From the NCBI RefSeq assembly GCF_035083965.1, contig NC_089731.1, positions 10,638,001-10,702,000 of the forward strand: 64,000 nt of DNA. Direction: 5' to 3'. The position numbers and the translations under genes are program-made. Source of the stretch: Branchiostoma lanceolatum (lineage: Eukaryota; Chordata; Leptocardii; Amphioxiformes; Branchiostomatidae). The notes beneath the pieces are model-generated. The model searched no databases and was not told where the DNA came from. It was given only the letters and a program-made list of their open reading frames with translations. Positions 3,590 to 43,916 of the stretch are shown here, in pieces (position 1 is the stretch's first letter; the number at the start of each line of letters is the position of its first letter).

Positions 3590-6500
3590 TTAATCCCAGA
3601 TCCCATGAAGGGGACCGAGGGTCTTTCTCCTTCGTCTTTCAGCCTTTTTCCTTCCCGGTACGTTTGAAAACCAGCCGAGATCTGGCATCGCTGAACCGGA
3701 GTCCGAAGATGCTAGGAATTCAATGGAAAATATTAGAAAACAAAATATAAGAACCTCTCCCATTCTATGTTTTTCCTGTTTTCAAGACAGCCTCTCTAAA
3801 ATATGCACAAAGTCAGTCTCACTTCACAGCTTTTGATACCACTGATAAGCTAGACTAACAGTGGGAAACTGTTATGGCAGGAAGCAAAGCACAACCCAAA
3901 GATATTAAAAGTACCTAAACTTCCAGTAGAACCACGTCTTCTGTCGGTATATTTGTTCCCTGACCACCAGCTTGTTGGAAATAAGGTGTTCGGGTCGACG
4001 TTTTTGTCAGAACTCCTACGCCGATACCTTTGCCTCCGACAAGCTGGTCCAGCCCAGCTAGGATCAGTCTCCTCCTCTGTCGCTATACCGAGGAGGCCTT
4101 TTATGGTTGACCACCAACTGCGAGGTGAGAACCAGCCCAAGCTTTCCTTGTCATCTGACCTTTTGGTAGACTTCTCGTTCGGAGGGGGAGAAACTTTGAA
4201 TGACGGGAGCATATTCACGAAACTGGGTAGTCCTGTGAAATGCAGTGATACAAAATGACAAAAAAAATTTGGAATTTTTATTCTAATGTTTCCCTGGAAT
4301 ATAGTTTGGTTATACGCGCGGTGTCGTTCAACCGTTGGTGGTTAAGCCATAACAAACCCCACGAGAAAGATACTAAAAGTAAATTTTGTACACGGGCGAT
4401 ACACGTACCAGATCCCCACAATTGCAATATATGTACAATTCAGATAAATGAATAAGCTTAAGCATAATCCTGGTGTGTTGCGTCGTGAGGTGGTTTGCAG
4501 GGCAAGCAATACAAAAAAAAAAACACATTTAATTCATTCACCTCCACTTTCCTGTCGGTCTCTACCCGTGTCTTCCCCTCCTGCCCAGCCGTCTCTGAAT
4601 GCTGAGCTGGCCGGTTTATCCTCCCTGCCTGCCCGACCATCCTTATCAGAAGGCATCCAAAATGACCGTACTTTGTTAACCAAGGAACCCAGGGGTCCTG
4701 TGGAGATGAATTCACAAAATATTACTTTGGAGTTTGGAATATCAAAGCTAGAAGTCAATGTAAACTAGAGTCAATGGCAAAATTTCATTCACAGTGACAG
4801 TCAATCAGAAACGTCTCTCCCACGTCATTTTCTGATAAGAACTAAACTAGAATGTAATCGCGTAGGGAGGGGTGATTTTTTAACGGTAGGTCCAACTTTT
4901 TAATAGGTCTAATTGAAAACCATACAAGTAAGTAGGCACGTGCATTGGAAATTAATTCCCATTTAGCAGGATATACAAAAGTATCGTTTGTACTACATGT
5001 ACTAGAAAACTTAAACCATTTACCTGAGTCCTCTGTGACATTACTTCTGTCCTTCCCCGTGTCCTCGCCTCCTGCCCAGCTGCCGATTGGAGGCCTTCTC
5101 TGGTCTCCGTCCCATCCAAGCTGTTCTCGTGTTCCACTGTCTCCCCAAAGAGATTGCTTCAGACTATTTATAAATCCTTGAGAAAGACAGAGTTCATGCA
5201 TCAGCACAATAAGTCAAACATCATTGTGAAAAATGTGATCCGGGGTCACGTTCTTACAGTTCGTAGACATGAATTGAAAGTCAATCTACATAATCCTTAT
5301 AATCAAAACTTTCTAATTCCTATCTAATGGTATAACAAAGTCATACAAGACGCTGCCACAGAAATCTCCAAGCACATTTACCGGTGGTTTCCAAAGGGCA
5401 AATGCAGTATCCAATTGGATACTGATTTGGCTATTTGGATACTGTCATTGTCACCGTTAGATCTGTTTGGAAATTAAACAATATCTGTACATGGCGCTAG
5501 TACGGTAATGCGGTATGTTGTATATAGTGCATTGTATAGTGCAACAAACATGTCAGGCCAATATTGGTCAGGTCATCACCTGACTTCCCGGCATCCCCGT
5601 GACTTCCGGTGTCCTGCCCTCCCTGCCAGCTTCCCACGAAGGCGGGTCGTCGCTTCTCTGACTCACCAGTCGTCCACGAGTCAAAACGCCTTTTCAGACT
5701 GTTCAGTAAACCTTAATGAAAAGGACAACAAACTCATTGCCTAATTATCATCAATATTGGGAAACCATTAAAACTTTGCCTTCAATTTGCAAGATCTAAG
5801 ATTCCTTATCAACGTACTTGGTGAATTCTCTTCTTGGTTCTTTCCTGCTTCTCCTCCTCCGATGACCACGTTGTGCAGGATACCTGGGATGTGATCTTCG
5901 TACGTACCACGGTCTTCTACAGTTTCTTCACTAGGAAGTCGTAGGAAATTTTTAACCCCACCCACAAAATCCGAGAGCATTGCGGCTCCTCCTCCAATTG
6001 GCTCTGTCATTGGAGAGAACGTATGAAATTTTACAACTGTGGATTTACTCGAAAGTATGAAGGTAGGACAGAAAGAAACGCCTTTAGTATCATTTCATAC
6101 AAAGATAAACCTGCTATGATACTTAAGGAGTTTCTTTCTGACTTACCCTCGTAGCAACTGCCTGGGACTAGGTTTAGCATGGACAAAGAAGCTTTGGTAA
6201 ATACATCACTTTTTAGATGCTATTTTGACACGGATGAGACATCCTTACCGATACCGCTGCTATACTTTACTGCACCAACTATCTTAAAGCAACAATGAAG
6301 AAATCTGTTCTTACGTGAGCCACGTCTTCTGCTGGTATTATCCTCTCCTGCTTTAAAGCTTCCCAAAATGACCAGGTTCTCATCGGAAAGTTTATCGTCA
6401 GAGCTGTCCACCACATACTCCATAGGGGGGGCATTATAGAGGAGTCTCCCGTTGCTTCCGGAGTTTCTTTCTTGAAGAAAAAGATAGATAACGAAAGATA

Positions 6501-9500
6501 AAACTTCATCGATGTCAGGGATTCATGTTATGAAAAAGCTAGCGTCTCCAAACTGCTACGCGCGTATTCCGTTGTTTCTTCTGGAATTTATCTATCTATG
6601 ATCATCTATATCTATATAGCCAGTATTACCGCCCTTCGGCGTAACAAAGCATGCATGTTTCCATTAATCCGTTTGTAAGCATTATTCAAGATCATGCATG
6701 ACCCAAAGCATACACTTACTTTTGTTTCTCTTTTTCTTCTTGCCGCTGCCCTTTTCATCTTTGCACTGCTTTTTCACACACGCTTGTGTCGTACGTAGCC
6801 GTTCCCTCACCCTCCTGTCGGTTCTTGGAGCTGTGTGCTTCCTATTTGGGTCATCGGCAATAACTGAAATGTTCAAATTTATGTGAAATTAAAGCATCCA
6901 GTTTCTATAGAGTGGTAATAACTCAATACTTTTTTTTCAAATGATTTTGATTTCAACATGGTACATAATTTCGCCAGAGTACATAATTCCGCCAGGGTTC
7001 ATATATTCCATCATGGTACATAATTCTACCAGAATACATAATTTCACCAGGATATATAATTCCACCAGGGTAAAAAATTCCGTCCGGGTACATAATCAGG
7101 GTACATATTTCTACCTGGGTACATAACATCGGGTACATAATTCCACCTTAGCACATAATTCCGTCAGGATACGTAATTCCATTAGGGTACATAATACCAA
7201 TTATTCTCTGCTGTTTGGAAGCTTAACATTGTATAGTGAACACAAATGCAGAAAAGGAAGGAACACATCATCCCTCATGAGTTGTCTAGGATTATCTTTA
7301 CATTTTAACCAGGAGACATAGATCGAGTACTTTGCTATTGTTAATAAGCTAGCACAGCATTCTTTGGATGCTAACAAGACTTCATCAATAACTCAATACT
7401 TAACAATGACTAGATGTGCGAAACTTTTGAATCCCTACATCATAACTATCGTGTCACACATAAAAGTGTAGAATCTATTTTACAGTGGTAAAGATGATAA
7501 AATAATGTTCAGTGAAATGTCTCCACATCATGTCATCTGTCTTGATGAGGCTTCATCCTCAAGAACAACCTTACCAACACGTGCCTTCATCTTTAATATA
7601 CCACCTACCATCCACTTCTGACATCTGTAATGTCGACATACTAGTGGACTCCTGGTCCGGGCGTCTTTCTGGGCCTGGAACACAGAAAATGCGTTAACAG
7701 TTGGTGGTGAAAAAAAAATTGTCTAGCTGCATTTAGGCTGCACTAGCTGACAATGTTACTCTCCTAGACGTAAGGAGTAGGTACTCACTGTACATGTCTT
7801 CCACGCTGGTATGGCTGATGTACAGATCTGATGGAAAATGACGTATATTGGACCAACAATCGCCTAATGTAGAACGACGATCCCTAGACATTGCCACCGG
7901 AGTTCCTATCGAACAAAAACACGGTGACTTCATAAATAATGCGTATAATTGATTTCACGAATACGTAGGTATAAAACTACATTATGTTCACAGACAAAAT
8001 GCCATTATAATGACATGCAGCTGTTGTTCAAAATGAGATAAGATGAATTCAGCTTTTCCTTAATTTAATAACTTAATAACCTTACTGAACATTATTGAGA
8101 AGAGGGAGGCACGAAAATCGTCAGACTATTACAACGCGTATAGCTATTGTCCTGCAACTCACTTGTCCCATTTTCTTCATAGCTGATGTCAAAGTCGGAA
8201 AGTGAACGCCGCAGATAGGATGACCTGTGGTTCCCTGGAAATAGACTTCTCTTGCCGTCTAGTTGGAACAAATCACAGTGTGATAAACACATATCGACTA
8301 TTATCAATATGACAGAATGGCATTAGATTTTTAAAAAGGACATTAAGAACCATACAGGTGCTCTATACCCACCTTCTTCATGACTGTTATTGCCGTAGAT
8401 GAGCGATTGTCCGCTGTCCTCACTTCCAGTGTCCTCATCCTCAAGCCAATTGGATCGCTTGATTATGACGTCATCTCTGTGTTCATCCTGCTTGCTGTTC
8501 GAAGCTTTGCCTGTGCAGTAGTCAATTCCTTCGGCATCATCTAGCATTTCACATTCTCTGTCTACATCTACATAATCTGGGCACTTGGTGTTCACATTCC
8601 GTCGTCTGACACAATCTCCTCGATTTCTCAGACAAAATTGTTGTTGAGTGCTGAGCCGTATGACTGAAAAAGAAGGCCATAAACATAACTCTGTTCGCTG
8701 TCGCACATGATCATTGAACCAGATGGAAGAGAAGAGACATTCTTAAGGCTGTATTCAAGCATGATATTCTTACCTCTGCGTTTCCTCTTTCCCGTACTGT
8801 ACATGTCTGGATATGTCTGGAAACGCCGAGTCCTGGGGCGGTCCTGACTGTTATTCTTATCATCCTCATATCCTTGGATGAATAAGGAAAATATGCTTGG
8901 GAATTAACAGAAACGTTCCGTGCATTGCACAATAGAAAGTCTAAATCCTTTTCAACATGGATTTTAGAGACAGAACAATGTTTCAGAGTATATTTATGTA
9001 TAATCATACGGTCTTTTGAAATTGAAATAGTTTTCCGCGTTATGTCAGGGGAACTGACAATCCACTACACTGAGAAAAAGCCATTCTACAGGTTGACAGG
9101 TTTGAGTCATAAACCCCTAGTTTACAACACGATGCTTGCTTTGTGAGATAATAGAATGGCAAAGTTCTTTATCTACAACCAAGTATTCACATAGCCTCCG
9201 TTGCAGTCCTTTTCCCCGCGGCGTTTTTTTTCAATTTTTTTGGGGGGGGGGGCCGTGCGCCTGTGTCCGCTATAGACCCTAGCGGCAAACACAGGGTCTA
9301 TAGCGGACACAGGGGCACGGCGGATACGAGATCCCAAGCAGATACGCGGCGCCCCCCCAAAAAAAAATTGAAAAAAAAACGCCGCGGGGAAAAGGACTGC
9401 AACGGAGGCTAGTATTCACACGAGCCGACGTTTCGATGACTGTCTGTGTCATCCTCCCGTGAAATAATAGTTATGTCCTTCGTCCGTGTGCCACGTGCCT

Positions 9501-9632: not shown

Positions 9633-9642
9633 GCATGAAAGA

Positions 9643-11417: not shown

Positions 11418-14400
11418 TCAGGAAAAGAATGAGAAAGGAGAGTTCTTATCCTTGGGCCTCGGGCTATTTCCTCTTACGCCACAGGGGTGTCTTCCTTGGG
11501 ATTTCTGTCCGTTCAGTAACTTATTCAATCCGAGATAATCCATAAATGAGCCTTCCTGTTCTGAATGGGTCCCTGTTGAAGATAGAAGACTGTTAGAATT
11601 CGAAAATGTGCAACCTGGAATTTAGCTTTTCTTTGATCTGTAATATTGATGATATTCTAAGAAGAATCTACACGAGTGATGAATAGAACGACAAACCTAC
11701 GCAATAAACCTACGAATCTGAGCTGATACAAGAAAAGTTACATACATCACAAACCGATGAAATGCACTAATAGGACTCGAAAAAGAGGGTGCGTCTGTGT
11801 CTACACCTGATACCCACGGAATATGCAAAAATTACCACCTAATCTATGATAGTGGTGTTCGTCTTTGTGTGAATCTAGTGAATGTTCTTTAAGCATTTCC
11901 ACGAAATACGGTTGGCCAGTAGCTCTGGTGATCCCAATTCTGTTCATGCTTATGAAATATGCAGGATTTCCAATTTTCTCCTATCTATTTTACTATTCCT
12001 TGCATTCACGTGTATGAATGTAAAAAAATATGTATAATTTCATGAGCAACACAACACATCTATGGCATTTTCAAATAAAGAATTCGATAGAGATGAAATA
12101 CCTCTCTTCTGCCAACCGCTGTTGCTGTTGTTACTGTCCTTGTTTTGGGTCTTGTCTTTCCATCTATCGAACGCCGTCCTCGCTTTATCCATTCCAGTCC
12201 ATTGATCTAAAACACTCCGGGCTTTATTATCGGTATTCTCGTCTCCCTTGTCTTCTCCCCATGGCTTTCTCATTGAGTTCTGGAGGTTTTGTATCCAACT
12301 GGGAGAATCTGAAAGAATTTAACATATCATGACACAAGATCATCATTTCTCAGCAAATACGAAAGGATTTTTGCTACTGGTTTGGGAGTTAACTTTTAAT
12401 CTTTTATTTGTAGCATGTTAGGAAATGGATAACCAAACTTCCTTGTCTGAGCCAAACCGATAATTCTGTTTCAGTAAAATTTCATACTTGCAAGAGATAC
12501 AGCGACACATTATTTTTTTCTAACCCTTTTACCTTTTGCTTCCTGGTCCTTTTCTCCCGTCCACCATTTTTCTGGAGAAAACCAGCTATGATCATTCCTT
12601 CCCTTAGCAGAACCCTCGCTCGTAGAAGCAAATGATGGTAGATAGTCCCTGAAGCTGGGAGGTGCTGTAGATCACGTTTGACAACATGTCAGTTTTATCA
12701 AGTACTTATCTTATTACAAAACGATTCAACAAATAAAGTTGCGTACTGGCTGCACTTCACAACTGAATGGGCTGCCAATGGCATATCAAATAAAGGTGAC
12801 TTACTTACACACTGATGATGTGGAATTGAAAAACGCATCAGCCAACCTGTTATCAGTACGAACTTAAGTATAATATTCTATACGTTTCCCATTATAGTAT
12901 ACTGGGTCTTACCCAACTGCCATCAACCAATCACCACCATCACCTGTAAATCATTGCCGTCTTGCACAAATGCTAGAAACCACCACGTACCACTTGTACC
13001 ATCCTTTCTGTTTCTCCCGGAGTCCTCTCCGGCGACAAATGTGCCGCTGAAGACCGGACTGACAGGTTCGTCCTCTCCTCCGTACTGAGCAGGATCTTCA
13101 CTCGATGACATCCGAAACGACCTTCTGAGACTGCCCAGGAAACCCAAGGGTCCTGTAGCAAACCAGAAACCGTTACATGAAATGTATTTAACATTCATTG
13201 GGATCGTAACTGTTTTTGTTGTTGTATGGCGTCTTCATGTGGAATGAGACCATGGTATATATAATTATATTAGCAATCTTTGCTAGTTTTCACGAAGAGC
13301 TATAACATAGCTACGCACCTACAAATCTTTTATAGCTATAACAAAGCTACGCACCTACGAATCTTTTATAGCTATACCATAGCTACGCACCTACGAATAT
13401 TTTATAGCTATAACATAGCTACGCACCTACGAATATTTTATAGCTATACCATAGCTACGCACCTACGAATCTTTTATAGCTATACCATAGCTACGCACCT
13501 ACGAATATTTTATAGCTATAACATAGCAACGCACCTACGAATCTTTTATAGCTATACCATAGCTACGCACCTACGAATCTTTTATAGCTATACCATAGCT
13601 ACGCACCTACGAATCTTTTATAGCTATACCATAGCTACGCACCTACGAATATTTTATAGCTATAACATAGCTACGCACCTACGAATATTTTATAGCTATA
13701 AGATAGCAACGCACCTACGAATCTTTTATAGCTATACCATAGCTACGCACCTACGAATCTTTTATAGCTATAACATAGCAACGCACCTACGAATCTTTTA
13801 TAGCTATACCATAGCTACGCACCTACGAATATTTTATAGCTATACCATAGCTACGCACCTACGAATCTTTTATAGCTATACCATAGCTACGCACCTACGA
13901 ATATTTTATAGCTATAACATAGCTACGCACCTACGAATCTTTTATAGCTATAACATAGCTACGCACCTACGAATCTTTTATAGCTATAACATAGCTACGC
14001 ACCTACGAATCTTTTATCAGCGTTTTTATGTTAACAAAGAAAAAAAAAACCTTGTTAATCATTGTCCGAAATTATACTTTATGATTGTCATAACTAAGCT
14101 TAAGGTCAGTCAATAGAGCACACACCTGGCTCATTACTACAGCTCTTTCCCGAGTCCTCTCCCCCAGCCCAACTCCCCAGCAGACCAGCAGACTCGTTCG
14201 TTCCTCTTTTCCCACTACGGTGCTGACTCATCCCATCGATGCCCGCTGAACTCAGGAGAGATTCTTTCAGATTTTGAATAAAACCTGGAGCCGAACAGAT
14301 TAGCAGTGTTTCAGTCTAACTAGCATTTTCCACCAGGTGTATCAAAACTTGATCAAATTGATAACACAAGTAGCCTCCGTTGCAGGCTCTGAACCGGCTT

Positions 14401-17400
14401 TTTGGGGGGCTAAATAATACACTTTTTGCAGCCAGCCCGTAACTATCATAGCCGGCTGATAGTTACGGGGTTGGCTGATAGTTACGGGCTGGCTGCAAAA
14501 AGTGTATTATTTAGCCTCCCAAAAAGCCGGTTCAGAGCCTGCCACGGAGGCTATAACACAAGCACCACACAGAATAAGATGAAAAGTTATTTATCTCCAG
14601 TTATAATCTCTTTATGATGAATAGTTGTGACCTGAGTCATTAACTGTCGCCTGTCGTCCAGCATCCTCCCCTTCAGCCCAGCTGCCAAGAATGACTTGTT
14701 CTCCGTGTCTCCTTCCTTTTGATTCGTCACCGAAAAACACATTGAATCGTCCCATCAAGTTGTCAATGAAGCCTAGAAGAGGAATGATCAACGGGCAATT
14801 GTCAGCTTTACGCGTAGAATTAATGTTATTTCTAAACTGATATATGGACATAAGATGATTCTCAACGACGTTTTTGTGACATATACTGTACGGTAATGTT
14901 ATGTTTGGGCATTTGGTCTTTCCAGATCGTCTTATTACCGTACCGTTATTGCTGAAAAAGACACTTAAGTCCCAGCAAGAATGTCCTTTAATTGAACCTT
15001 TACCACACAATTACGACATCTTCTACTAACGAAACATTTGTTTGACAGTTTACAATCCAAACTTACCATACAAAGAGTTTGTAATGATTCACTTAAGTGG
15101 AACCCACCTGAATCGTCATCTTTCTTACTATCCGTGTACTGCCTTGTTGCCCAGCCCTGGATGAGATCGGGAAGCTGGTCTGTGTATGTTGTCTCTCCTT
15201 CTTTGACATCTTCCTCTGGAATCCCGAGCGACTGTTTAACACCGTCTACAAGGTCTGTCACTATCTTAGCTCCTGCTCCGATAGGTTCTACCGAAACATA
15301 TTAAATACTGATGATAAATCTATATATAATGAGTTACATTAGGCTATCTAACATACGTAAATAAAATAGACAAGAGAAAATTGATATTGTTAACTATTTG
15401 TATCAAAAGTGCCAAATGATATCTACATATATGTATGGCTTGGTCAAAATCATATCAAGTTGCTAGAGTAACAACTACATGTATATTTGGCGTATCTTAT
15501 TACCTGGATGTCTAAATTTCATCAACATATCTACATGTCCTTACTGGTCCATCACGGTATCACTAAGTTCTGATGTGTGCGAGGATGTGCATCAGCCTTG
15601 AAACAATTAAAGGCTATTCTTTTCTCAAGTTTCAATTATGGACTAACCCAAGAAATGAAAGCAAGACAATGAATGTATTAAACCTGCTGGTTTCCGGCCG
15701 TCTTTCCCCTTCCTTCCCGTGTCCTCCCCTGCCCTGAAGCTTCCCAAGATAACAAGGTTTTCATCAGATCTCTTTCCATCAGAGGAATCCTCTGCGTACT
15801 CGACAGGTGGAACATTGTGCAGGAGTCGTTTACGGTGGGTCGGGCTGGTTTCTTGAGAAGAAGATTGATAAAAGGTATACAGTTTAACGTTATTTCAGTC
15901 ATGTAGTCATTGCCGACACAGATTCATGACAAGGTTTTGTCAACAATAAAGCACTTGGAACTCCGGGTAGTGGATTCTTTTCACCGACACCGTATTGAAA
16001 GCTAGTTGAAGTAGGTGCTGACTAAGAATATTTGTTATCCAAGCTATACTTGTCATGTCTCTTATCCAGTACCGCCATTCACGCAATGACGACTATCGGT
16101 ATGGTACATTTCCTGTTTTGCAGTTGCTGAATGTACTTCATCTTATGTACCCTTCCTGCCAGCGTAGCTCTACAGCTTCAAAAGACCATATATTTTCCCG
16201 AGAACTAAGTATAATCGATTAAAGTTCAGAAGGAGTTGCAAAACCTGAAATACCGGGTAGGAGAGGAGTTCGAGGAAACCAGAGGGTAACTGATACTTGG
16301 GCCCAGTAATAACAGTTCTGAAGGTCAGCGCCGATAGTGTTCAGGCATACGCAGCAGTTTTACGACATACCTTTGTCGGTGGCGCGATAGCTGATATCAA
16401 CGTCAGACATGGAGCGACGGAGACTGGACGACGTGCCAACTGCAGGTGAACAGGCATCCGATTAAAATGATATTGGTATGGCATCAACTTCCTTTCAACA
16501 CAATAGATAGAAATGCATTTTTCTATACACTTATGATAATGATGGAAACTGGGGGATACTAACATCTTCTTCTGCAGTCCTGCCGTTTGCTGTTGTGTTT
16601 CCGCTGATTGTCTGCTCGTAGTACTTCAGCTGTATCTTTAAATGTTGGGTCTTCAGGTTCCTTGTCTATTGGTACAGGTCTTCTGGTAGCTATAGGGTGG
16701 GGTCGGGGGCTGGTGTAGCCTGTGTGGGTTACAATCGGATCACAATTAAACCAACATAATATAATCATCATCATCATCATAATCACCGCACAGTCCAGCT
16801 GCCACCGATGCGGGCCACCACAGCTCGCCACTCTCTTCTGTACAGTGCCTGCTTTCATAAAATATAGTATATTGATATAATATAGGTGTTTCAGAATGAA
16901 AAGATCGTCGCAAAAAGACACAAGCCGCTGCAAATGATAAAAGAATAATAATGGTACTGTTCATATCTATGAAGTCAGAGCTGTAGAGAAAATACCTTTC
17001 CTGTTGCCATGGTAACTTATGTCTACGTCTGACATCGATCGTCTTAGGGTTGAAGAGACTTGAACACCACCAAGTTGTCCTGCAAGACATTCTGATATCA
17101 ATGATATATCAGAAATAAAGATGCTTTTCTTCAACTGTGCAATACACAAGCTGAGCTACGTATACAGTACGAAAATTACTGAAAATAAACTTTTAGGATA
17201 CTAACGGATTCTCCGATCCTTGGTCCTTGGTGATGAGTATTCATGGCTCTTCTCACCCTGATTAGCTTCCTCTAAATCTCCATCAAGTAATCGTTCTCTT
17301 TTTGAACGGATCTTGTACTTGCTTTCCTCCTTAGGAACTCTTCTCGGGTCTCCTGCACGATATTAGGTTCAACGGGTGGTTGAGCACTTACAACATTTAG

Positions 17401-19993
17401 AGCATCGATTGAACGAGTATAAGATACATCGATTCTCTCTCCTGAGGATAAAGTTGTTCAGTGTCTGGTCCAATTTGTGAATCCTGTATTATCATTGCGC
17501 CGTTAAAGTTTTGGCTGATCTGTTATCAAAGTCTGTTTATATGGAAATAGAGCTGCTCAAAATAACCAGGTTATACGTACCAATTTTATGGCCTCTATAG
17601 CTTATGTCCACATCCGACATGGAACGTCTCAACTTGGATGAGCGGGATTGCGACGACCTTGGCACGTGTCCTTTGCATTGGTCAAAGTAATCGATCGTTA
17701 TGTACCCAAACTGTACAATAATACCTTGAGTAATTCCATCTCAGGTAACTCTAAAAGTAGATAACAGAAATTTCCCTTTCTTTCGGTCAGACCATAGTGA
17801 GGAAAGAAGGAAGGAAGAATAAGAAGATCAAGAAGGGAGTACATCACCTTACTACATGCTACATCACCGAGACTCCACCTGGATCTAACGTCCTACTATA
17901 TGCCTGATCCATAGCAGCATGAATACATCATGACATGGGATATGTCATATACAAAAGCACGTACTAAGTTTGAATGTTACGTTGGTATTGACAATCATTT
18001 CCTTGCAGCCTTTGGAGTCAAATCAGACACAATACAAAAGTATCTGATGAATGTAAAACGTACTGATAATTTGACATTTTTTGTAAGTGAGACATGACAT
18101 TGCGTCAGGTATACTCACTCTTCCTCCTTGCTTTATTAGGACTCCCGGGTAGAGCGTCTATTTCGTCTTGGAGGTTCTGTTGCACTAAATGTGGACTTGT
18201 CCTCCCTGAAAGTGAAGATTTAGGGATTGTGTAGTGAAGATTTAGGGTTTTCATTTGCACCAAAAGACTCTCCTGTATGGAAAAATATTTCAATTTAAGC
18301 CCAGAGTAGAAAAGGGTGGCAGTGGATCTCCATCCATACTTTCGTCTTCACAAGTATTAAAAAGAAAAAAAAAACACTACTGAATATTTCTAACTCACCT
18401 CTCCCTTTTCCTCCGTAGCTGACGTTCACATCAGATGTCGAACGTCTTAGTTTAAAAGATTTGCGAATCCAGGATTTGGCTTTCGCTGTTTCTGAGGGGA
18501 GAATATATAAATCGGCAATGTCACTGTGGTAAACAGGGAAGATAATACAGTAATGATAGCGCCGCCAGGTAGGTAGGAGGCTGGCAGGAAATGCCACGTC
18601 GGGAACGAAAAGTATGATATAAATGCCAACAAAACACAAAAAAGTTTCAAATATTAATCATGAGCATCATGTTTTATGTATATACTTGGTATGAATTGTT
18701 TAATTTCCGTTCACGCAAACGGGCCCCGGTTTTGAAATGTGACCTTAGCATAATACAGATTGTATATTTCAAAAGAATCAAGATACTTACTGATACTTTT
18801 CTGTAGCGACGTCAACATCTCTTTTAGATCATCGTATCCTGTTATGCTTTCTTTGAGTCTCTGGGACTTTCCGTGTCTCTGATGTTGACAAACATCATAT
18901 TCCTCTTCATCCGTATTGACCAGACTGTCTTGTTGTATTGAGCTGTCGGCAAATGTAGATGATCTTGAATCCAGGTCTTCTGTCCCATGTTCACTTTCAG
19001 TTAGCGAAGTTTGCAGTCTGTACTTTTTTGTAGCAGCGTCTTCGTCTTCAGCGTGTGCAAGACCAATACTATCGTCCCATGCTTCAATCTCCCTGGCTTT
19101 GGCATTAGCTTTGCATTGTCTGGTGACATCTTTATTTCTTAGATTTCTCTGGGAAAGTGTTTGTTGAGTACTAAGTTTGGTAACTGTAAGATAATGAAAT
19201 AAGATGATTACATAAAGGAACAATGATGCAACAGGTGTGGTTGATAACCGAATGCATCACCACCAACGAAGTAGCCTCCTTTGCAAACCGGTAAGTTTCA
19301 ACGAATCTGTATATCCCTCCATTTTCATTGCAAAACACAATACCTTCACAAAGGCTATTCCTTTATATCAACTATAGAAGTTTAGTCCTTCGCTCGGAAG
19401 TTAAATACGTATACGTCCTTTAAGATGATTCTTAATGGGGAAGGTCATAGAAAATATTTCAACCAAGGGGAGGGGCTTGGAAATTTTTTGGGCCGGACCG
19501 CATAAGCACCCGTACCCCCGTTGAATATCGTGCAGCTCCTTTCAGTATGTATTCATGTTTACCTGGCTTCAACATGGCGCCTGTAGATCTAGACAGTCGA
19601 TTGTTATACGAATGCTTCCCTCATAACTGTCACGTACCTCTCAAGCTCCTCCGGCTTCCTATATCTGATCTGGCACGCCTAACTCTGGGCCGACCAGGAT
19701 CACCATCTCTCCTACCCTGTGGACCTTAAACAATGGTCAAAGGTCATGATCATGCTACTGTTTCAATCTCAAATGAAGCTTAGTGTGGTCAATTATATTT
19801 GAAATTCACAGATAATTAAAAGTGCCTTTTCTTTCCGACATATGTCCAGACTGCCCAATCCCGACCACCACCACAACCACTAGCATCAATTGAATCATGT
19901 GATATGGGAATGACGTCGGTATCTTTGGACAGGAATGGTCTGAAACTTACCCTTGCTCAACCGCTGCCCCTTCCCCGCTTGGTTGTTGCCCAT
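11418..19993 (-). CDS. Unrecognised modular MGN protein, paralogue 2 (18 exons, 850 aa)
   Basis: Largest member of the unknown family. Exons 5'-3' on the minus strand: 19993-19951, 19724-19638, 19183-18791, 18491-18399, 18205-18119, 17670-17581, 17352-17206, 17079-16996, 16719-16564, 16439-16371, 15851-15684, 15287-15108, 14772-14632, 14284-14126, 13152-12991, 12664-12533, 12308-12102, 11572-11418. All introns are phase 1; the sum is 2553 nt without a stop. It starts MGNNQAGKGQ (myristoylation-like). Order: VTKLSTQQ exon; four LRRSxSDVxxSY exons alternating with three charged linker exons; RLLHNVPPVEY plus DENLVILGSF; EPIGAGAK; three GSWAxGED-type exons; WFSPEKWW; a SPSWIQNLQ exon; and the tail ending SPFSFFS. 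No transmembrane segment, signal peptide or catalytic motif is seen. Repeated RRSxSD sites suggest phosphorylation (inference). Because cassettes are symmetric, exon skipping would keep the frame, so many isoforms are possible. Confidence 0.74.
13298..14017. repeat. 36-bp minisatellite, 20 copies
   Basis: Twenty tandem units of 36 bp (core catagctacgcacctacgaa) lie in the intron between exons 14284-14126 and 13152-12991 of paralogue 2. Copies differ mainly at two positions (aac/acc before atagc and tct/tat before ttatagc), which give a mixed higher-order pattern. Since 36 is a multiple of three, one plus-strand frame stays open for 278 codons; I regard this as an artefact. Confidence 0.95.
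14362..14562. mobile_element. Foldback MITE, TAGCCTCC family, with 9-bp target duplication
   Basis: The element spans 14371-14553 and is flanked by the perfect repeat taacacaag (14362-14370 and 14554-14562). It begins tagcctccgttgcagg and ends with the near inverse (gccacggaggcta). The interior differs from the copies at 9192 and 27091 but is again an almost complete foldback. It lies in an intron of paralogue 2. Confidence 0.9.
16371..18491 (-). repeat. Amplified two-exon cassettes: LRRSxSDVDISY module plus charged linker
   Basis: Within paralogue 2, four exons (18491-18399, 17670-17581, 17079-16996, 16439-16371) each end with a version of LRRSMSDVDISY followed by a short Gly/Lys/Arg-rich tail. 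Three linker exons (18205-18119, 17352-17206, 16719-16564) separate them; all are basic and two end in an Arg cluster just before the splice. The colinear gene at 3590-9632 has only one clear copy (8234-8163). The simplest reading is tandem duplication of a linker-plus-module pair in a phase-1 setting. The linkers have diverged much more than the modules, which suggests selection on the LRRSxSDVDISY core. Confidence 0.75.
19271..19290. mobile_element. Solitary TAGCCTCC-type terminal repeat
   Basis: The sequence tagcctcctttgca matches the terminus of the intronic MITEs at 9192, 14371 and 27091. I cannot find the partner end nearby, so it is probably a truncated copy. Confidence 0.4.
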
Positions 19994-22900
19994 GATGACG
20001 ATCTAAACAATGCAGATAAAAACGGCTAGTCAGTCATGACATGGCAGTACACTGTAGAGCAGTAGTGTGAGATAGTACTAGTGTTTTACACGCCAGTATG
20101 GTGTAGACAAATGCCCCATTGAGATAGCGTTTTACGCAGTTTCGTGTAGACAAATGCCCCATGTGCCCGCCTGTGTCATGCTTTGCGCTTTGTGGTGTGA
20201 ACAAATGTCCCAGCTCTTTTGAAAGAAACTCTTCGCCGCGAGGCATAAGCTTGTCATTTTTGACGGTGTCATCTCATTGTTCACAGAGTGTTATTCTGAT
20301 CGAGGTATTTGTAACGCGATTGAGGAATTCCCTCACTGAACGTTAAGGGGAATTCTTGACCACCTGTTTCTATGGAAAAACACCACCTTTCAGCTGTTCA
20401 CACATATGCGTTACGCTTTTTCGTTTCTCGCTTGGGATTTGAACCATGGCATGTGAATGTACTTAAGATGCAACTACAAACTCACATGAAAGCATTCATA
20501 CGGTCAGATCTTAAGTGCCATCTACGCCCGAACCTTGCACCTTTTGGTCTTACCTTCGTGGCAGATATTGTAAGTATTCAAATCAGAAAACTAACGGTAA
20601 CTAATTGTATGAAAGTAAGATAAAATCTATTGATTGAAACGACTGCAGCTTTCATCAATCGAAACACGCGTACATGGTTGTGTGTATTCATTTGATAAGC
20701 TGACATAATGATCAAATGCGACGGAGTATACAAAATACGAATCTAATAAAGAGAAGACTGCTGGAATGTGCTCCGTGTTTTGGGTGTAGGATAGACTGCA
20801 GACAGCAGCAACACCCCTCTATACGATTTCACACTTTGATTTCTACAGATCTTTCAGATAATGAGGTACTTGCATTTGTATCGTACCCACCTGTGTCATG
20901 TTTACATTGTCTTACCTCTCTGCAAGTATTCGTGAAATCTGTACAGTAAACATGCTTATATGTATGACTCTATGATTTTTGTGTAACATACCTGGTAGTT
21001 TTTCATGCAGTGATGTTTCCGAACCGTGGGTTTAAATTCATAACCGAACAATGTACCTTTAATCCCCTCTTCAGAGATGAATATGATTCGGCTTCCGGCC
21101 CGAATCGGGACAGCTTTATTTCTTTTCTTACATGATACTATCAACCTTGACCCCACAACAACATTACAGCCCCAGAAACAACAACAACAACAATGCTGAC
21201 GACAACCACGACAATTGCAGCTTCAACAACGGTAACCACAGAAGAAAAGAAATTCTGTTCCGACAAACACAGCAGTAACGGCACACTAACTACCTACCCA
21301 AGAGTAGAACAGATCAACCAACTGGAGTGGCGTGGGTGCCAGACTGTGGTCGAACCGCCTCTTGAAATCGCACACTCTGTCTTTCCCCAAAGAGTTAACA
21401 AGACTTGTTGTGTCTGACCCTCTTCTGTGACCTAACATCTGACCTGTCAGTCCCATCATGCACCAAAATGCCTGAGGAAATTCAATACCTTTGAGACGAA
21501 GGTCAGTCTGATATAGCAGATAGACTACTAAAAGACTGATTACGATAAGAATCTCCTCGCCATTCTAGAGAATATAGAGATTGAAGAAGGACGTCAATTG
21601 GACATATTCAAAGAATACTAAAAGCACCCCCCACACACATACATACAATAGACTTTTGATGAGAAATCACCTGTCAAACTTCGTTTTCGTGATCAACCTT
21701 CATCATGTTTGGCTCTTTAAACTGTTGGATGCCCTCGCCAACATTCCCTCTTAGAAGGGGCCAACTAAAGTATCGCGGTATCTCAGTGTTAAGAATGAAT
21801 AGCGACAGACAACTAAGTCACCTTAAGTCCTGACCGCCCTGGGTTCTCGGTAAGCCTGTTGCGGTAGACTGAGGTCTGATAAGGAGTCGGGTTGTCTAAC
21901 TGCCACTTTTAGGAAGGAATTGTGATTGAAACAGACTAAAATTGGACAGCCTTAGGGCGATCAGGGACATTAGTAACAAGCCACTTGTCATTCTGGATTT
22001 GCTTCCAGTCTAAGACGTAGTAGCCTTTATTTGCTTTATCTTCTTAAGAAAACTATGTCTAAATTAACTACATCAGTGGTCGATGATCTAATTTCGGGTC
22101 GGCTTAACATATTTGCAAGGAATTGCCCCCGGCTGTACTCTTTTCTTCCCAGTTGTTCTTCAAGACGAATGAAATACTCGGCCTCTTACCGTGCTGCTAA
22201 TCTTGTTTGACGTGCCGCATTGTGTTCTGTGTCATGTGTCGCATTGCATTGTGTCCGATCGTTAAGGCATGTACTGTCATTCCTGTCGTTGTCGTGCAGA
22301 AAGCTCCCCCTCTCACTGGACCCGCGACACGCTGGCGGCGTCGCTGAGGCCGATCGAAATGGCAAAGCACTCAACGAATTTCATCGCCAAAAAACGAATC
22401 TTTTTAACCTTTGTGCATGTGTGTTTTGTTGTCTTTTTGGTCATACTTGTACGTTTTGAATGATATTCTCATTTTAAAGTCAAGAGTAACACAAGTCCAG
22501 TTTAGGACGCAGCAACGCCAGCGTGCCGCGGGTCCAGTGAGACGGGGGGGGGGGGGGCGTAACACTGGTTATTGTACCCAGAGCTGTGGCTCTATGATAT
22601 AGAATCGGGAAACAAAACGCCAGCTTATCACGAGGGGAAAAGTACGTACATACCCTTTATTAAGTACTAAGAGCATAAACGTACAATAAAAGTATTTCAT
22701 TCAATATAATAATCGTGCCGCAAATGAAACCATTCCCGCACTGCAATCATGAAAGCACTCGCTAGGTTTAACAACATCGACTATCGTTAGCTGGCCCAAT
22801 CATTTGCTTGCGACAGCAAATTAAAACCCAAAACGTTATCACTTGAACGTGACATTGATCTACCAACATACAGGTGATCCAAGTCCTTCTCCATTCCCCC

Positions 22901-25900
22901 TTGCCTTCACAAGATGCCGATTTCTTTTTTTATAACCATTGGACCACAAGCGGTACAGGGATCAGTGATTCATAAATGAAATTTCAGATGCATCTTCTCA
23001 AATATTCGATCTTCTCTGAAGGAAAGAAAAAAAAAAGGTCGTAATTTTTCTATGTCGCTGTAAAACTTTTTTTGATATTCTGTGTGGTAATTTCCCATCA
23101 AAATATACCTTACACACGGCGTAGGTAATTTGGTTCCTACGGCGATATTAGGTTTGTATTACTACCATTTCATTCCGCGCCTTGACTATGGGGATTCGTT
23201 ATTTTTTATTTGATTTCTAGCCTCAAGTAGTCATTGATGTGTGATAAGCCTCCTCTCCGTTAACCAGTCGGTGGACAGGGTCACAAATGTAATCAGTTCT
23301 CAGAGTCAGAGGGCACCTTAGGGAGATAAGAAGTTTTACTGAGGGCTGGTCTAAGCCTAGCCCATTTACAAAATTCATGGAGGGGTTAGAAATATTTCCT
23401 GAAATGAAACATCGCCAAATATAAAACGTTAGCATCTGGAAATAAAAACGTGATGGAAGGGGATGAGTAAATTTGCAATTATGTTTTATAAAACATCTCT
23501 AACAGGTTTTTGCTAGTGCGGTAATTTATTATCTCCGATGATCGAAATTGAAATAAAGACGAATTCGAATAAAGAAATAGCAACGTTAACATTACATCAT
23601 TGGTGTGTATTCTGTGGCTGTGCAACTATTATTAGGTAACATATTTTTACCTGAAACAATTCCGATTTCTTGGAACAGATACGTTGCCTGTTGTGACCAT
23701 TTCCCGTAAGGGTTACGCGGATACCGTTTTCTAAAAATACTAGCTTTAATATCTTGCTACTCAAATATGTTGTTGGATGTCTTTGATCTCTCGTATATCA
23801 CATCTAAGATTTGCATTATGCCTCTTAGACATTTCTTTTGTATCTGAGTTGATTAATGGTAGCCTTAAGCACAAATATCTCAGTGGGAAGTACGGGGCTC
23901 AGAAGTAAAAGCGCAAGAATACATATCAAGATTTTAGCGCACACACAAAGGCCGGAGGCACATTGAAATATGGCAAACCTTCCAACAAAACGTTAAGGTA
24001 AATCTCTTCAGGTGTTTAGAGAAGGGGGATTTGTTAGATGTAATAACAACTGCGCTCCCCAGTTAGTCAGGTATTTTGACATGTACATGTAGGAGTTGTA
24101 TGTAACCTTGGCGAGTTGGCGAGGGAAGTCGCGCGTCTGTCATGACTGGAGTTGTGGGAGTTCCAAATCGCGCGGAAGGATCATGTGCCTTGGCAAATCG
24201 CTGTTATACCGACAGAAACCGGCGGAAACTGGGAAAAACCAGTCTGAGTGAAGATTAACCCTGCAGCATGTTACACTATGAAAGCCGTAAGACGAAATGT
24301 GCTGCTTAGGAGACGCGGAAACATCGTAAATTGTACACATAAAATGCCGTGTAAATACAACGTACTGTACTGTGATGCAAACAACATGCAGTGTATAGAC
24401 ACCATGCAGAAATCGGAAAATAGATGTAGAAAGACACTGTATGATGCCATTTATTTGACCAATGGTACACAGGCACATAGCGTGACGACTTTACAGTCAC
24501 ATACATTTACATACAGAAGCCTCATAACGGCCATAGTGTCATCCAGTGGACAAGATAGATTACATATAAACATTCAATGCATTAGTAAAAAAGATTATCT
24601 GTTCCTTCTTCAGTATCACCTAATAGATAAACACTGGCGTTTCGTCATCGTTCACAACGTAGTAAACTGGCACGGATTTAAACTTTAATCCAACATACAT
24701 GTTGTAACAGTCGCTTTCTCCTAGAGAGACATATCTCGTCTAGACAACACAGCTGGGCATTTTCTTTAAGAACACACATCCATCATCATATACTCTATTT
24801 AATCTCCAGAAGAAATTCACATATTTGGAAGAAGTTGTTGCATTCGTCAGAGGAGAGGGTATCATATATCCGACTCTAACTCCAGGTAGGGGTGTAGCAA
24901 ATTTTGAAGAAGATGTTTCTGACGGAATAGAGAATGAGAGGAAGACCCAACAATTCTAGTCAAAACACTTACTTATATTAATTCCAGGTAGTTGCGAAAC
25001 TTCTTTAAAGTGTTGGTTAAGATTCTTCTTCCCTTTTCTCTTGGTTAGGACTAATACAAAATAATAGACGTAAAATGCAGGGGCATTTAACAAGTTAAGG
25101 TGTCAAACTGCCATCAAAATTGACCAAAATGACTCTCCAATATGAAGATTTACCCTTGTTTACCGTGTTTACCGACCTGTCATGACTGTGTTTTAGTTTC
25201 TACAAATCTGACCAGTCCTCTACCTATCCACACACATCTCTTTAGACTCATTGGTATTCAATGTCGTATTCCCTAGAATGCATCTATATATGTATACCGT
25301 ATATATCAAACGACATTAAAACTTTATAAGGCTTACACATGGCTGGCACTGACACTGGTTTTGGTCCCACGTAATGAAAAGTTTCTTCTTTACTTTATGT
25401 CTCCACAAAGTACAACAAGTTGTTACAAAGGCAACATCAAGTACATCAAGTTAGATAGTGTACATCTACGATATGTGTCGCGTATATGTATATAAAAGAT
25501 CACAAATGTTCCACCGTCCTTGTCTTTTTCACCTCTATTTTAGTCTATTTATCGACTGAGCAATCGCTCTTCCACGGCCCTGCTAAAATCGCAGACAAAC
25601 TGGGTCCGAATTTCACAAACTAAAGAAAATGATCTCACTCTTTTTCAATTGTGCTGTGATCACTTCATGATTTTTTCAAAGCCACGTGCATTTATGGCAC
25701 GCTGAGATTTGCTCTTTTGGCACAAAGATGTTATTCATTAAAATAACGTGGTTTAGATCCCTTGATCCGTGCGCGAAATTATAAGAAGAAAATTACTGTT
25801 CACTTGGTGTGAAAAGTGTACTCTACAATATCAAACATCAACGTCTACATAAATAACTGTCTCCAAAACATTGCATTTACATTGCTCAATCATAGCAATT

Positions 25901-26090
25901 ATCATCACGCAGCAATATGCAATATGCATAATAAGTTTGAACTCAAAGACCTACCCTTCACCACTCCCTATCATATGCCTTCTTTCCCCTTTGACGTTCT
26001 AGGTATCGTCTTGTTGCTTTTTCTTGTAAAAAAACAATTAAAGACAAATAGGTAAGCTGGCTTTTTCAGTTCCTCGACACAACTTTGCCT
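19994..26090. other. Intergenic between paralogues 2 and 3
   Basis: No supported coding gene. A possible acceptor before 20002 and a good donor after 20992 (CAG then GTATG, minus strand) could mark a 5'-UTR intron of paralogue 2. Near 20098-20215 there are three spaced copies of gtgtagacaaatgcccca (about 45-50 bp apart). A MITE lies at 22304-22557. Elsewhere I see only unassigned sequence; an open frame of 146 codons near 24248-24688 (plus) has no recognisable content. Confidence 0.45.
22304..22557. mobile_element. MITE with CTCACTGGACCCGCG termini
   Basis: The left end (ctcactggacccgcgacac, then gctggcggcgtcgctg) and right end (gcaacgccagcgtgccgcgg, then gtccagtgag) are inverted repeats of about 30-40 bp. 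A closely similar copy lies at 58184-58414, sharing the interior (caacgaatttcatcg, ttgttgtctttttg). More degraded relatives lie near 27330-27540 and 32455-32900. No target duplication was clear. Confidence 0.75.
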
Positions 26091-28593
26091 CTACGTAAAG
26101 TATGAGATGAAAGATTTTCCATCATTCGTTCTCTTCCCGCTGGATTTTCTGGACCCCGCCGAACCTCTCCGGGAACTTCCGGTGCTGGCCGTGCGTCTCA
26201 CGGAACCACCCGACTGCCGCCCCGATCCGCTTCGGCTGCTTCCAGTACCTGACGAAAATTTACGATTACTCTATGGCAAGGAAAATAATATACAGACACA
26301 ATGACACGATTGAGCATGCACACAGAGTGTCATAGATATGTATAATGTATGGTCGTGACATGAATACTACTTGAGAAAGGTGTAGCTTACGATATGCTGG
26401 AGGGAAAATTAAAGCTTGTACAACTGACAAATATCTTTAAAAAAAGCTATGAACTCAAGACGCTTACTGCAAGTCCTGCTGGCCTGCCTGTGACCACCGC
26501 CCGAATCCCGGGAGTTACTCCGCTTCTTTCTCCCAGCATCCTCTCCGCCTGCCCAGCTTCCCATGACCACTTGCGACCTGTCTTTGGGCTTGCCCTTCGG
26601 TCTTCTTTCCTGTTCGTCCCTGGACGGAACCCGGAAGGACCGTCTCAAACTGTCCTTCAAGCCGGAGAAGCCTGGAAACAATATTTCAGACATTTCAAGT
26701 CATCATCAGTCGGTTTTGGTTGGGATTTTAGGAGACCTTTGAGCAAGGATGCTACGAAATCTTGAGCAAGCTAAGGATGCTACGAAATCTTGAGCAAGGA
26801 TGCTACGAAATCTTGAGCAAGGATGCTACGAAATCTTGAGCAAGGATGCTACGAAATCTCACTTTTTTAGTAGATGACAATGATTAATGTACTAAGCATG
26901 GTCATAGGCAACAGTATTTAACTTTCACAATGACCGGTAAGTTTGGTATAGGATACAAACTTACTATGACTCTTTTCTTTAGTCTTCTCCCGAACATCCT
27001 CCTCTGATCTAGACATCCCGAATTGGAGAGATCCGGAACTTCTGGCTCGTCCGTTCCTGGGTCCTACAGAGGGGAGATGTTGTTAACACGTAGCCTCCGT
27101 TGCAGTCCTTCCCGCAGCGATTTTTTTCAATTTCTTTTTTGGGGGGGAGGGGGTCGGCGCCGCGTATCTGCATGGGATCCAGGTCTACAGCGGACACAGG
27201 GGCGGGGCGGATACGGGATCCCAAGCAGATACGCGGCGCCTCCCCCCAAAAAAATTGAAAAAAAATCGCTGCGGGAAGGACTGCAACGGAGGGTAGTTAA
27301 CACGCCCTTTTCACAAGAGGCTGCGACCGCACTGCAACCGCGCTGAGCGACCACAAATTTCACATGGTGGCTCAACGAATTTCATAGATAAGAATGAATC
27401 TTTTTACGTGTTGCGTGTTTTATTATCTCTTGAATAATAATTTTACATCTTGCATCATATTTCAAATAGGAAATCAAGGCTCACACGAATCAAATTTTGG
27501 TCGCTGTAAGGTCGCTAGACCATCGCCGTCAAATGGAAAGGGAGCCTAAGGGCGTGGGAAGACCGTAGCCATAGACACTGGAAGAGCCAAATCCGTAGGA
27601 CAGCAGGAAATATTGATATTTGATAGGTAGGCAAGAAATTATTCTACTTCACAGCTCCTTTATGAGAATTTCACGTCCTTTACGAAATTTATGGTACTCA
27701 AAACTTCGCCGGACGGAAAAAATAAAAGAGAACAAAGGACTGTAAAAATGCAACAAAAGAAACAAAAATGTATGAACATGTCGGACTCAACTGGTCGTGC
27801 GATGGTTGTTTCTGTCCTCATGCGAGAATCTGCTCAGAATTTCGTCAAACTTTGGTTTGTTGTCGGAATCTGTAAATCAAATAACGAACAGAAATAAAGT
27901 ATAGTACTGTACAGAAAGGAATAAAACCGCAAGTAAACATGAATATTCCCAAAGCTTAGGATTGTGGCTTACAACAACATCTAATGTTTTCTTTTCTGTT
28001 GCAATATACATTATCTCTGTAACATCGCCAATTTATAGGGTAAATGTTCTGTCTTTGGAGACGTCTGAATAGATTGGGCCTTGAGATACATCATTATCCC
28101 GGCGTTTCAATCCCATTTGGTAACCATTAACTTGCCATAAAGTGTAATGGTAATCGTACCAATGTGGCGTTGGTGTCTCTAGGCTCCCGTTGTAAGTACA
28201 ATGACCATATGTGAGGCCACAAATCTTTAGATAAACAATCACCAACAAAGAGTGGAATGATGGTCACCAACTATATATAAGTGCTAACCTTATCTGATGA
28301 GCAAAAATTTCCGCCTTTTGCGACTGTTTTCTTTGACTGCCCATAATATAAAAGCCTGGTCGAAAGGCTGACTACTGCAAGAAACAGACGACCCTGGAGA
28401 CAGATGTCCATCTTCCTTGCTATCTTGCCCCCCCCCCCCCAACGACCCGGAGGTCAAGGGACTAGGTAGGTAGTATAAAAGGCCACGCAGATCAGATTTC
28501 AGGTCAGTTAGTATATGTAAATGAAAATGTGCATTAAAACTTACTGGAGTCTCCATGACGTTTTCCGCCGCCCTGGCTCTGCAAATTCCCCAT
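26091..28593 (-). CDS. Unrecognised modular MGN protein, short paralogue 3 (5 exons, 195 aa)
   Basis: Exons 5'-3' on the minus strand: 28593-28545, 27869-27792, 27063-26965, 26671-26468, 26248-26091; all introns are phase 1 and the sum is 588 nt. It starts MGNLQSQGGGKRHG; Ser at position 6 gives the best N-myristoylation fit of the three. Exon 3 is 99 nt, like exon 2 of paralogue 1, and carries GSLQFGMSRSEED. Exon 4 has LKDSLRRSF and VVMGSWAGGEDAGRKK, the family signature. The last exon is Ser/Gly/Arg-rich (SVRRTASTGSSRRGS) and ends KSFISYFT, resembling the SPFSFFS end of paralogue 2. Exon 2 uses a weak donor (GTTGAG) and is the least certain. A strong acceptor before 28602 implies an upstream 5'-UTR exon, perhaps ending at 30313 (CAG then GTGAGC). 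Function unknown; the likely role is membrane-tethered and disordered (inference). Confidence 0.7.
26741..26859. repeat. 23-bp tandem repeat, five copies
   Basis: Five units of gagcaaggatgctacgaaat plus ctt, one with a 5-bp insertion, lie in the intron of paralogue 3 between exons 27063-26965 and 26671-26468. Confidence 0.9.
27082..27304. mobile_element. Foldback MITE, TAGCCTCC family, beside a splice acceptor
   Basis: The element spans 27091-27295 with perfect 9-bp flanking repeats gttaacacg (27082-27090 and 27296-27304). Its termini and interior (gcagatacgcggcgcc, gcggacacaggggc) closely match the copy at 9192-9411. It lies only about 27 bp upstream (minus-strand sense) of exon 3 of paralogue 3, so its insertion moved or created the branch-point region. 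Confidence 0.9.
28405..28487. repeat. Poly-C dispersed repeat
   Basis: A poly-C run is followed by aacgacccggaggtcaaggg and actaggtaggtag. A similar unit (poly-C, aacgaccttgaggtcaaggg, aataggtaggaag) lies at 61500-61565, so this is a dispersed repeat. Confidence 0.6.
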
Positions 28594-31599: not shown

Positions 31600-31699
31600 G
31601 TGGTCCTAGCATTACTTTTTCTACGTGGAACGGGTGATGACTTTGTTAGAAAGGTATTTAACAAAGATTAACACTTAAACCATCTACATGTCAAAAATT

Positions 31700-41779: not shown

Positions 41780-41890
41780 ACGCTATGGCTCGCGTTTTAA
41801 GCCAAGTACACCGGGTCATCCCTACTCTTCTCGATGAGTGTGTTGGGTTCTTTTACGTGCAAATTTACATGAAAATGCCCTGTTGGGCTG
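41780..41890. repeat. Dispersed repeat with gggttcttttacgtgc
   Basis: The string gtgtgttgggttcttttacg resembles a repeat tail I recall from other marine invertebrate genomes. Only one copy occurs in the window, so this is recollection rather than a match seen here. Confidence 0.3.
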
Positions 41891-43840: not shown

Positions 43841-43916
43841 AGCGATACGTATCGGGCAGCGACCGACGTACGCGCGTTCGTGTGTGTTTGGGATAGTATG
43901 TGACTGTGTATACACG

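Follow-up and report, generated by a model that had tools for sequence, protein, structure and literature searches.

In a 64,000-nucleotide window of the genome of the amphioxus Branchiostoma lanceolatum (assembly GCF_035083965.1, contig NC_089731.1, positions 10,638,001 to 10,702,000), three adjacent genes on the minus strand, here called A, B, and C, lie between positions 3590 and 28593 and can each be spliced without an internal stop. Judged from their sequences, they are one paralogous tandem family, which looks like a real, coding, and old one and carries no catalogued domain in the libraries searched.

Gene structure, paralogy, and coding evidence

The gene models were assembled manually and by a scripted rebuild (Table 1). 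The rebuild reproduced both the exon counts (14, 18, and 5) and the two ends of the array (28593 and 3590) in the original prediction, which had also described an ATG-Gly-Asn start in each gene, introns exclusively in phase 1, internal exons with lengths divisible by three, and joins free of stops. All of these features were found: the start is seen in A, B, and C, every one of the 34 introns is GT-AG and in phase 1, the 31 internal exons are all multiples of three, and the frames are open through the three genes, with no stop or frameshift across 1739 codons. The splice-site columns fit the usual consensus, with G at donor position +5 in 24 of 34 introns and C or T before the acceptor AG in 27 of 34. 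For gene B, the acceptors of exon 6 (17670, which has no clear pyrimidine tract) and exon 7 (17352) were picked since other AGs disrupt the frame. An exon 6 start at 17657 gave 20 internal stops and was replaced by the acceptor at 17670, which restores the frame; an upstream AG as the exon 7 acceptor runs into an in-frame stop, as read from the sequence. Acceptor-like sites 9 bases upstream of the ATG in gene A (tttattccag) and gene B (attgtttag) suggest that these two genes have extra 5' untranslated exons. AATAAA or ATTAAA hexamers were found within 2.5 kb downstream of each gene, gene C having ATTAAA only.

As a control for openness, we used AG...GT intervals from the rest of the window, matched in length within 9 bases, of which 0.6% to 32%, depending on the exon, were open in frame. 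Summed over all 31 internal exons, the log10 probability was -33.1, a figure that assumes independence of the exons and ignores the freedom of choice in exon picking. Because an open exon chain may be overfit and is weak evidence on its own, it is the homology between the genes that carries the argument.

Exon-versus-exon comparison, with shuffles run on the 124 of 666 pairs that scored at least 28, showed that B3 and B11 to B16 are collinear matches of C3 and C8 to C13; the scores ranged from 55 to 145, and for none of the seven pairs did any of 400 shuffles reach the observed value. Exon A4 matched B13, B15, and C11, among others, again with 0 of 400 shuffles. Searches with phmmer connected gene A to exon C11 (E = 1.2e-6) and gene C to exons B11 (E = 3.8e-14) and B15 (E = 1.5e-6). 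Despite the collinear B/C order, the best match of B13 is A4 and that of C10 is C11. The shuffle tests were unconvincing for the linker exons B5, B7, B9, C6, and C7, as well as for A1 to A3, B1, B2, C1, and C2, the best case being C7-B9, with 57 of 2000 shuffles reaching the score.

The pattern of nucleotide changes was examined in the seven collinear B/C pairs, which comprise 326 aligned codons. Differences at codon positions 1, 2, and 3 numbered 130, 109, and 196 (chi2 28.4, 2 degrees of freedom), and pN/pS was 0.448, whereas 300 column shuffles averaged 0.840 and never fell below 0.647; the codon tests used protein-guided alignments and a pattern-chosen core, which lowers the apparent non-synonymous change and favors a coding result. 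With this mostly synonymous divergence, the exons look coding and under selection.

Repeated modules, their age, and database searches

Two modules recur on separate exons. The first, with the core LRRS[MTL]SD[VF][DN][IV]SY, is absent from gene A, present once in gene C, and present four times in gene B, where the protein core is identical in B6, B8, and B10; the spacing L-x-R-x-x-S is kept in all five copies. Among the ten copy pairs, we counted 6.5 to 10 synonymous differences on 7.7 to 9.2 sites versus 0 to 5.5 non-synonymous differences on 26.8 to 28.3 sites. In pairs of B6, B8, and B10, synonymous differences number 8 to 10 for about 8 synonymous sites, while the 0 to 2 non-synonymous differences among these identical-protein cores are an artefact of stepwise paths through codons with multiple changes. 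Synonymous saturation with an unchanged peptide implies that the copies are old and that each one was retained, and saturated synonymous sites in a 12-residue core are difficult to account for if no coding constraint acted. Because it outlived this saturation in five copies, the core probably has a specific binding partner or modifier. B6, B8, and B10 score 70 to 74 among themselves and 56 to 61 against C4, a pattern that fits an extra duplication in B or a loss in C. Exon C5 might be a degenerate copy (IRHFPSDLYISH versus LRRSMSDVDISY), but the likeness is not significant, its score being reached by 173 of 2000 shuffles against B6 and 470 of 2000 against C4. The idea that SDVDISY is a nebulin-like SDxxY motif was dropped since the spacing differs from that of the nebulin motif.

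The second module, GSWxGGEDxG, is found once in gene A and four times each in genes B and C. All nine copies end in a variant of GSWxGGED, and an FxxSLxRSF-like consensus opens seven of them, the exceptions being B11 and C8. In the module tree, in which one of six inner branches was starred and four were open, B11 grouped with C8 (100/99) and B14 with C11 (92/96, slightly below the threshold of the tree tool), that is, across genes rather than within them. Thus, duplication of at least some of the GSW modules preceded the B/C split. B15 and C12 are reciprocal best matches by score and are not resolved in the tree. Profiles of both modules were run against 2858 six-frame open reading frames (ORFs) of at least 15 amino acids from the window and detected no convincing further copy: the next hits after the nine GSW and five LRRS copies had E values of 1.5 and 0.087 and were taken as chance, and since the profiles were built from the copies that they recover, only this absence of extra copies is informative.

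The array was also compared with itself at the nucleotide level (blastn, word size 7, E up to 0.01, minisatellite pairs excluded). Exon matches were limited to B11-C8, where the similarity extends about 20 bases into the upstream intron on the acceptor side, and to C11-C12; the remaining matches lay outside exons and resembled inverted, tandem, or dispersed repeats. Saturated synonymous sites, together with almost no intron similarity beside the duplicated exons, thus indicate that the duplications are old. The claim of a tandem array of three paralogues is upheld by the collinear B/C matches and by the GSW module common to all three genes, and the proposed recurrence of modules between genes is seen for GSWxGGEDxG in A, B, and C and for LRRS in B and C. 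Growth by both gene and exon duplication, which had likewise been proposed, is supported as regards the two types of duplication but not as an ongoing process, given the synonymous saturation and the few exon matches of the self-comparison.

No known domain had been recognized in the three proteins at the outset, and the searches agree. Against Pfam, A and B had no family at E up to 1, and C had Rib_recp_KP_reg alone, below the cut-off (E = 0.062); nothing exceeded the cut-off for seven GSW modules (HOXB-AS3 at E = 0.56 for one of them), and B12 and C9 gave 0 matches. In the Pfam run with the three proteins, the neighboring sialyltransferases were found at E = 1.4e-25, 4.2e-24, and 6.2e-16, and thus the search works on this genome. 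NCBIfam, searched with B and C, returned 0 families at E up to 0.1. Among Protein Data Bank (PDB) sequences, A and B had 0 hits and C had two at chance level (E = 0.64 and 1.2); the GSW and B12/C9 profiles gave 0 hits, and the LRRS profile gave one unconvincing hit (E = 1.4) over nine residues around DVDISY. Pattern scans found one stretch in viral contigs (protein C) and 55 in prokaryote genomes (protein B), with no relative confirmed in either, as expected. The strings GSWAGGED, LRRSMSD, SDVDISY, WAGGEDTG, and LRRSLSDFD were absent from the paper texts of the literature searched, and among the papers listed for lineage-specific genes of amphioxus, for exon shuffling, and for orphan genes, none treats the family as far as the titles and the beginnings of the abstracts tell.

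Table 1. Genes, exons, and module copies of the array (window positions; exons in order of transcription)
Feature	Position	Strand	Remarks
Gene A	28593-26091	-	5 exons, 195 amino acids (aa); MGNLQS start; joined coding sequence open; introns GT-AG, phase 1; last exon (A5) RS-rich
Gene A exons	28593-28545, 27869-27792, 27063-26965, 26671-26468, 26248-26091	-	
Gene B	19993-11418	-	18 exons, 850 aa; MGNNQA start
Gene B exons 1-9	19993-19951, 19724-19638, 19183-18791, 18491-18399, 18205-18119, 17670-17581, 17352-17206, 17079-16996, 16719-16564	-	
Gene B exons 10-18	16439-16371, 15851-15684, 15287-15108, 14772-14632, 14284-14126, 13152-12991, 12664-12533, 12308-12102, 11572-11418	-	
Gene C	9632-3590	-	14 exons, 694 aa; MGNKQD start
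Gene C exons 1-7	9632-9584, 8872-8774, 8663-8373, 8258-8163, 7905-7789, 7674-7609, 6863-6720	-	
Gene C exons 8-14	6470-6315, 6003-5818, 5711-5580, 5176-5024, 4697-4542, 4232-3915, 3711-3590	-	
LRRS copy B4	18399..18491	-	LRRSTSDVNVSY; SWIRKSFK precedes
LRRS copy B6	17581..17670	-	LRRSMSDVDISY
LRRS copy B8	16996..17079	-	LRRSMSDVDISY
LRRS copy B10	16371..16439	-	LRRSMSDVDISY
LRRS copy C4	8163..8258	-	LRRSLSDFDISY
Exon C5	7789..7905	-	Possible degenerate LRRS module, not significant
GSW copy A4	26468..26671	-	SGLKDSLRRSFR ... GSWAGGEDAG
GSW copy B11	15684..15851	-	GSFRAGEDTG; counterpart of C8
GSW copy B13	14632..14772	-	GSWAEGEDAG
GSW copy B14	14126..14284	-	GSWAGGEDSG; counterpart of C11
GSW copy B15	12991..13152	-	GSLRRSFR ... 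GTFVAGEDSG; counterpart of C12 by score
GSW copy C8	6315..6470	-	GSFKAGED
GSW copy C10	5580..5711	-	GSWQGGQDTG
GSW copy C11	5024..5176	-	GSWAGGEDTG
GSW copy C12	4542..4697	-	DGWAGGEDTG
Exon B12	15108..15287	-	Counterpart of C9; contains the 19-residue stretch that is the most hydrophobic in gene B, AGAKIVTDLVDGVKQSLGI
Exon C9	5818..6003	-	Counterpart of B12; contains the 19-residue stretch that is the most hydrophobic in gene C, IGGGAAMLSDFVGGVKNFL

The introns of the array contain several repeats. A 36-base minisatellite with about 20 near-identical copies (TTCGTAGGTGCGTAGCTATGGTATAGCTATAAAAGA type on the minus strand) occupies approximately 13300-14030 in the intron between B14 and B15. Imperfect palindromes of the miniature inverted-repeat transposable element type are located at 9192-9411, 14371-14553, and 27081-27302; variants of TAGCCTCCGTTGCAG lie at or near the ends of each, and those at 9.2 and 27.1 kb are about 80% alike over 232 bases. 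Short imperfect tandem repeats lie in intron 6 of gene C (6950-7198, GGAATTATGTACCCTG type) and intron 3 of gene A (26739-26859, ATTTCGTAGCATCCTTGCTCAAG type).

Beside gene A, about 17 kb (28600-45900) contain no gene that we recognized, and none of three ORFs from this region run in Pfam was matched. Two genes or gene pieces of glycosyltransferase family 29 (sialyltransferases) follow on the minus strand (45937-47407 and 60047-61295), the best PDB matches of both being alpha-2,8-sialyltransferase (entries 5bo6-5bo9). On the plus strand, 51740-52330 holds a partial gene of the CRAL-TRIO lipid-binding type (CRAL_TRIO_N at E = 0.00031, which narrowly misses the Pfam cut-off). ORFs near 58.0-58.3 kb, which by eye could be a later CRAL-TRIO exon, had no Pfam support. 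An inverted repeat with 77-base arms, 97% complementary and 6 bases apart, lies near the CRAL-TRIO-like ORF (52513-52672).

A tentative scaffold interpretation and its alternatives

Our favored reading, which we hold tentatively, is that this old three-member tandem family encodes scaffold proteins that are intrinsically disordered, cytosolic, and probably anchored by a lipid, with multivalent linear motifs. By composition, A, B, and C all lie beyond the charge-hydropathy boundary, on its disordered side. Their maximum Kyte-Doolittle means over 19 residues (-0.71, 0.62, and 0.94) reveal no transmembrane-like stretch, and a hydropathy scan of the N termini, made without a dedicated predictor, found no signal-peptide-like hydrophobic stretch. 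The proteins are net basic (+25, +23, and +11) and contain few cysteines (1 in 195, 5 in 850, and 9 in 694 residues). A and B pass an N-myristoylation rule of the PS00008 type, and MGNLQS of A also fits the MGXXXS/T consensus given in PMC6478813. Moreover, LxRxxS, which PMC3262827 describes as the PKD consensus, is present in all five LRRS modules as a putative PKD/CAMK-type substrate site.

Starting from the open spliced exons, the paralogy, the repetition of modules, the synonymous-biased divergence of the motifs, and the disorder-side composition, we infer myristoylation, phosphorylation, 14-3-3 binding, and a membrane switch. Each symmetrical 1-1 phase module exon would be a bead with one short linear motif, which could be duplicated or lost with the frame intact. 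N-myristoylation would tether the scaffold to the membrane. The LRRS bead (LxRxxS followed by D-x-D/N-x-SY) may be phosphorylated by a CAMK/PKD-type kinase and then engage a phospho-reader, for example a 14-3-3 dimer, the four copies in B allowing multivalent, graded binding; one 14-3-3 dimer can bind two phosphosites, according to PMC9523730, which gives mode I as R[S/aromatic][+]pS-X-P. The FxxSLxRSF...GSWxGGEDxG beads would dock on an acidic membrane or a partner, and phosphorylation of serine in their basic-aromatic stretch could free the bead, as in a MARCKS-type electrostatic switch.

Motif counts were compared with composition shuffles for ten patterns in three proteins, the patterns having been picked after seeing the sequences and the 30 tests being uncorrected; in this comparison, the basic-Ser/Thr-hydrophobic-basic pattern was enriched in A (3 versus 0.6 expected, reached in 30 of 1000 shuffles) and B (7 versus 1.8, 6 of 1000), and RRx[ST] was raised in C (6 versus 1.2, 2 of 1000). 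Several results weigh against the scaffold interpretation. The likeness of the first exons, including the MGN start, is not significant, with 77 to 176 of 2000 shuffles reaching the score. C fails the acylation rule owing to Asp at position 6, and Ser or Thr occupies this position in A only, so that neither MGNNQA of B nor MGNKQD of C fits MGXXXS/T. Basic-Ser/Thr-hydrophobic-basic sites number 0 in C versus 1.4 expected; for RRx[ST], neither A nor B shows enrichment; LxRxxS is not clearly enriched in any of the three (A, 1 versus 0.8; B, 5 versus 2.4, 88 of 1000 shuffles; C, 3 versus 2.1); and RxxS does not clearly exceed the shuffles. Helix moments above the 95% shuffle maximum were found in none of the proteins. 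LRRS[MTL]SD is not a canonical mode I site either, as Arg at -3 and Ser at -2 fit but basic -1 and Pro +2 are missing.

A bolder version is doubtful: in a previously undescribed animal family, 1-1 exon shuffling would have worked on cytosolic linear motifs, and exon duplication or alternative splicing would tune the valency of a membrane-tethered scaffold via phospho-switch or docking beads. If true, each linear motif would have the exon as its unit, with valency set by the number of exon copies, in an animal family with no catalogued domain. The bead series across A, C, and B (LRRS 0, 1, and 4; GSW 1, 4, and 4) would then offer a natural test of how linear-motif valency evolves.

The same coding family could instead act in the nucleus or in ribonucleoprotein condensates, as basic RS/RG-like disordered chains with the repeats as multivalent stickers. 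The net charges, the RS-rich exon A5, and the GKKKKRNK end of exon C7 speak for this; we nonetheless regard it as unlikely, as all three proteins start with MGN, GSWxGGED and LRRS are not RS or RGG repeats, and no RNA-binding domain exceeded the Pfam cut-off. Also rather unlikely is that A, B, and C belong, in diverged form, to a known animal family, for instance, MARCKS/BASP1-like or AKAP-like scaffolds, and were missed because disordered proteins evolve fast. Their general plan of an MG start, disorder, and basic-aromatic serine stretches is common to such proteins as PMC6478813 describes them, but no Pfam family exceeded the cut-off, no PDB match was convincing, and MARCKS is acidic according to the same paper while A, B, and C are net basic.

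Cytoskeletal or muscle-type elastic or cross-linking proteins, with the motif exons as actin- or filament-binding repeats, would account for the many small symmetrical exons with repeated short motifs in a disordered chain; titin PEVK and Xin-type arrays provide a comparison. The low copy numbers (5 LRRS and 9 GSW), the irregular spacing, and the lack of a known actin-binding repeat above the Pfam cut-off make this decidedly unlikely. Extracellular mosaic or matrix proteins are the classical users of 1-1 phase exons, and the uniform intron phase and exon symmetry are as expected for them; with no signal-peptide-like N terminus by hydropathy, few cysteines, an MGN start, and no extracellular domain above the Pfam cut-off, such an identity is highly improbable. 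That mis-joined or decaying exons form a pseudogene array or a gene-prediction artefact is scarcely credible, even though lancelet gene models are argued to be frequently wrong in PMC4967905 and two gene B acceptors were picked for frame, given the 1739 uninterrupted codons, the synonymous bias and codon-position pattern, and the common exon order of B and C.

Comparison with known systems

MARCKS, GAP43, and BASP1 show no relationship in primary structure; what they have in common are fatty acid modification and cationic effector domains, with phosphorylation by protein kinase C (PKC) reversing the membrane binding of these domains, as stated in PMC6478813. A, B, and C resemble this group, including MARCKSL1, in their MG start with a possible myristoylation signal (A and B), their disordered composition, and short basic-aromatic serine stretches such as SLRRSFR in A4 and B15 and SWIRKSFKLRRS in B4. 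They differ in having no Pfam match above the cut-off, in the failure of C under the acylation rule, and in carrying their modules on 14 symmetrical exons. In contrast to MARCKS, which is acidic with one basic PKC-site effector domain, they are net basic with several scattered basic-aromatic stretches, and the group has no counterpart of GSWxGGEDxG or LRRSxSDxDISY as judged by the Pfam result rather than by direct alignment. Thus, A, B, and C could act in a MARCKS/BASP1-like way, while the tests made do not place them within the group.

Multi-site 14-3-3 client scaffolds likewise repeat a basophilic serine motif along a disordered chain, and at least two copies in B could bridge a dimer; LRRS differs in lacking Pro at +2 and in its conserved acidic-SY tail, and the phosphosites here are putative. 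With extracellular 1-1 mosaic proteins, the three genes share phase 1 for all introns and symmetry of all internal exons, whereas their cores are linear motifs of about 12 residues, presumably cytosolic, rather than disulphide-rich domains, and they show no sign of secretion. Last, as in tandem lineage-restricted animal families, A, B, and C are neighboring paralogues on the same strand with very different sizes and exon numbers; a point of difference is that synonymous saturation marks their duplications as old.

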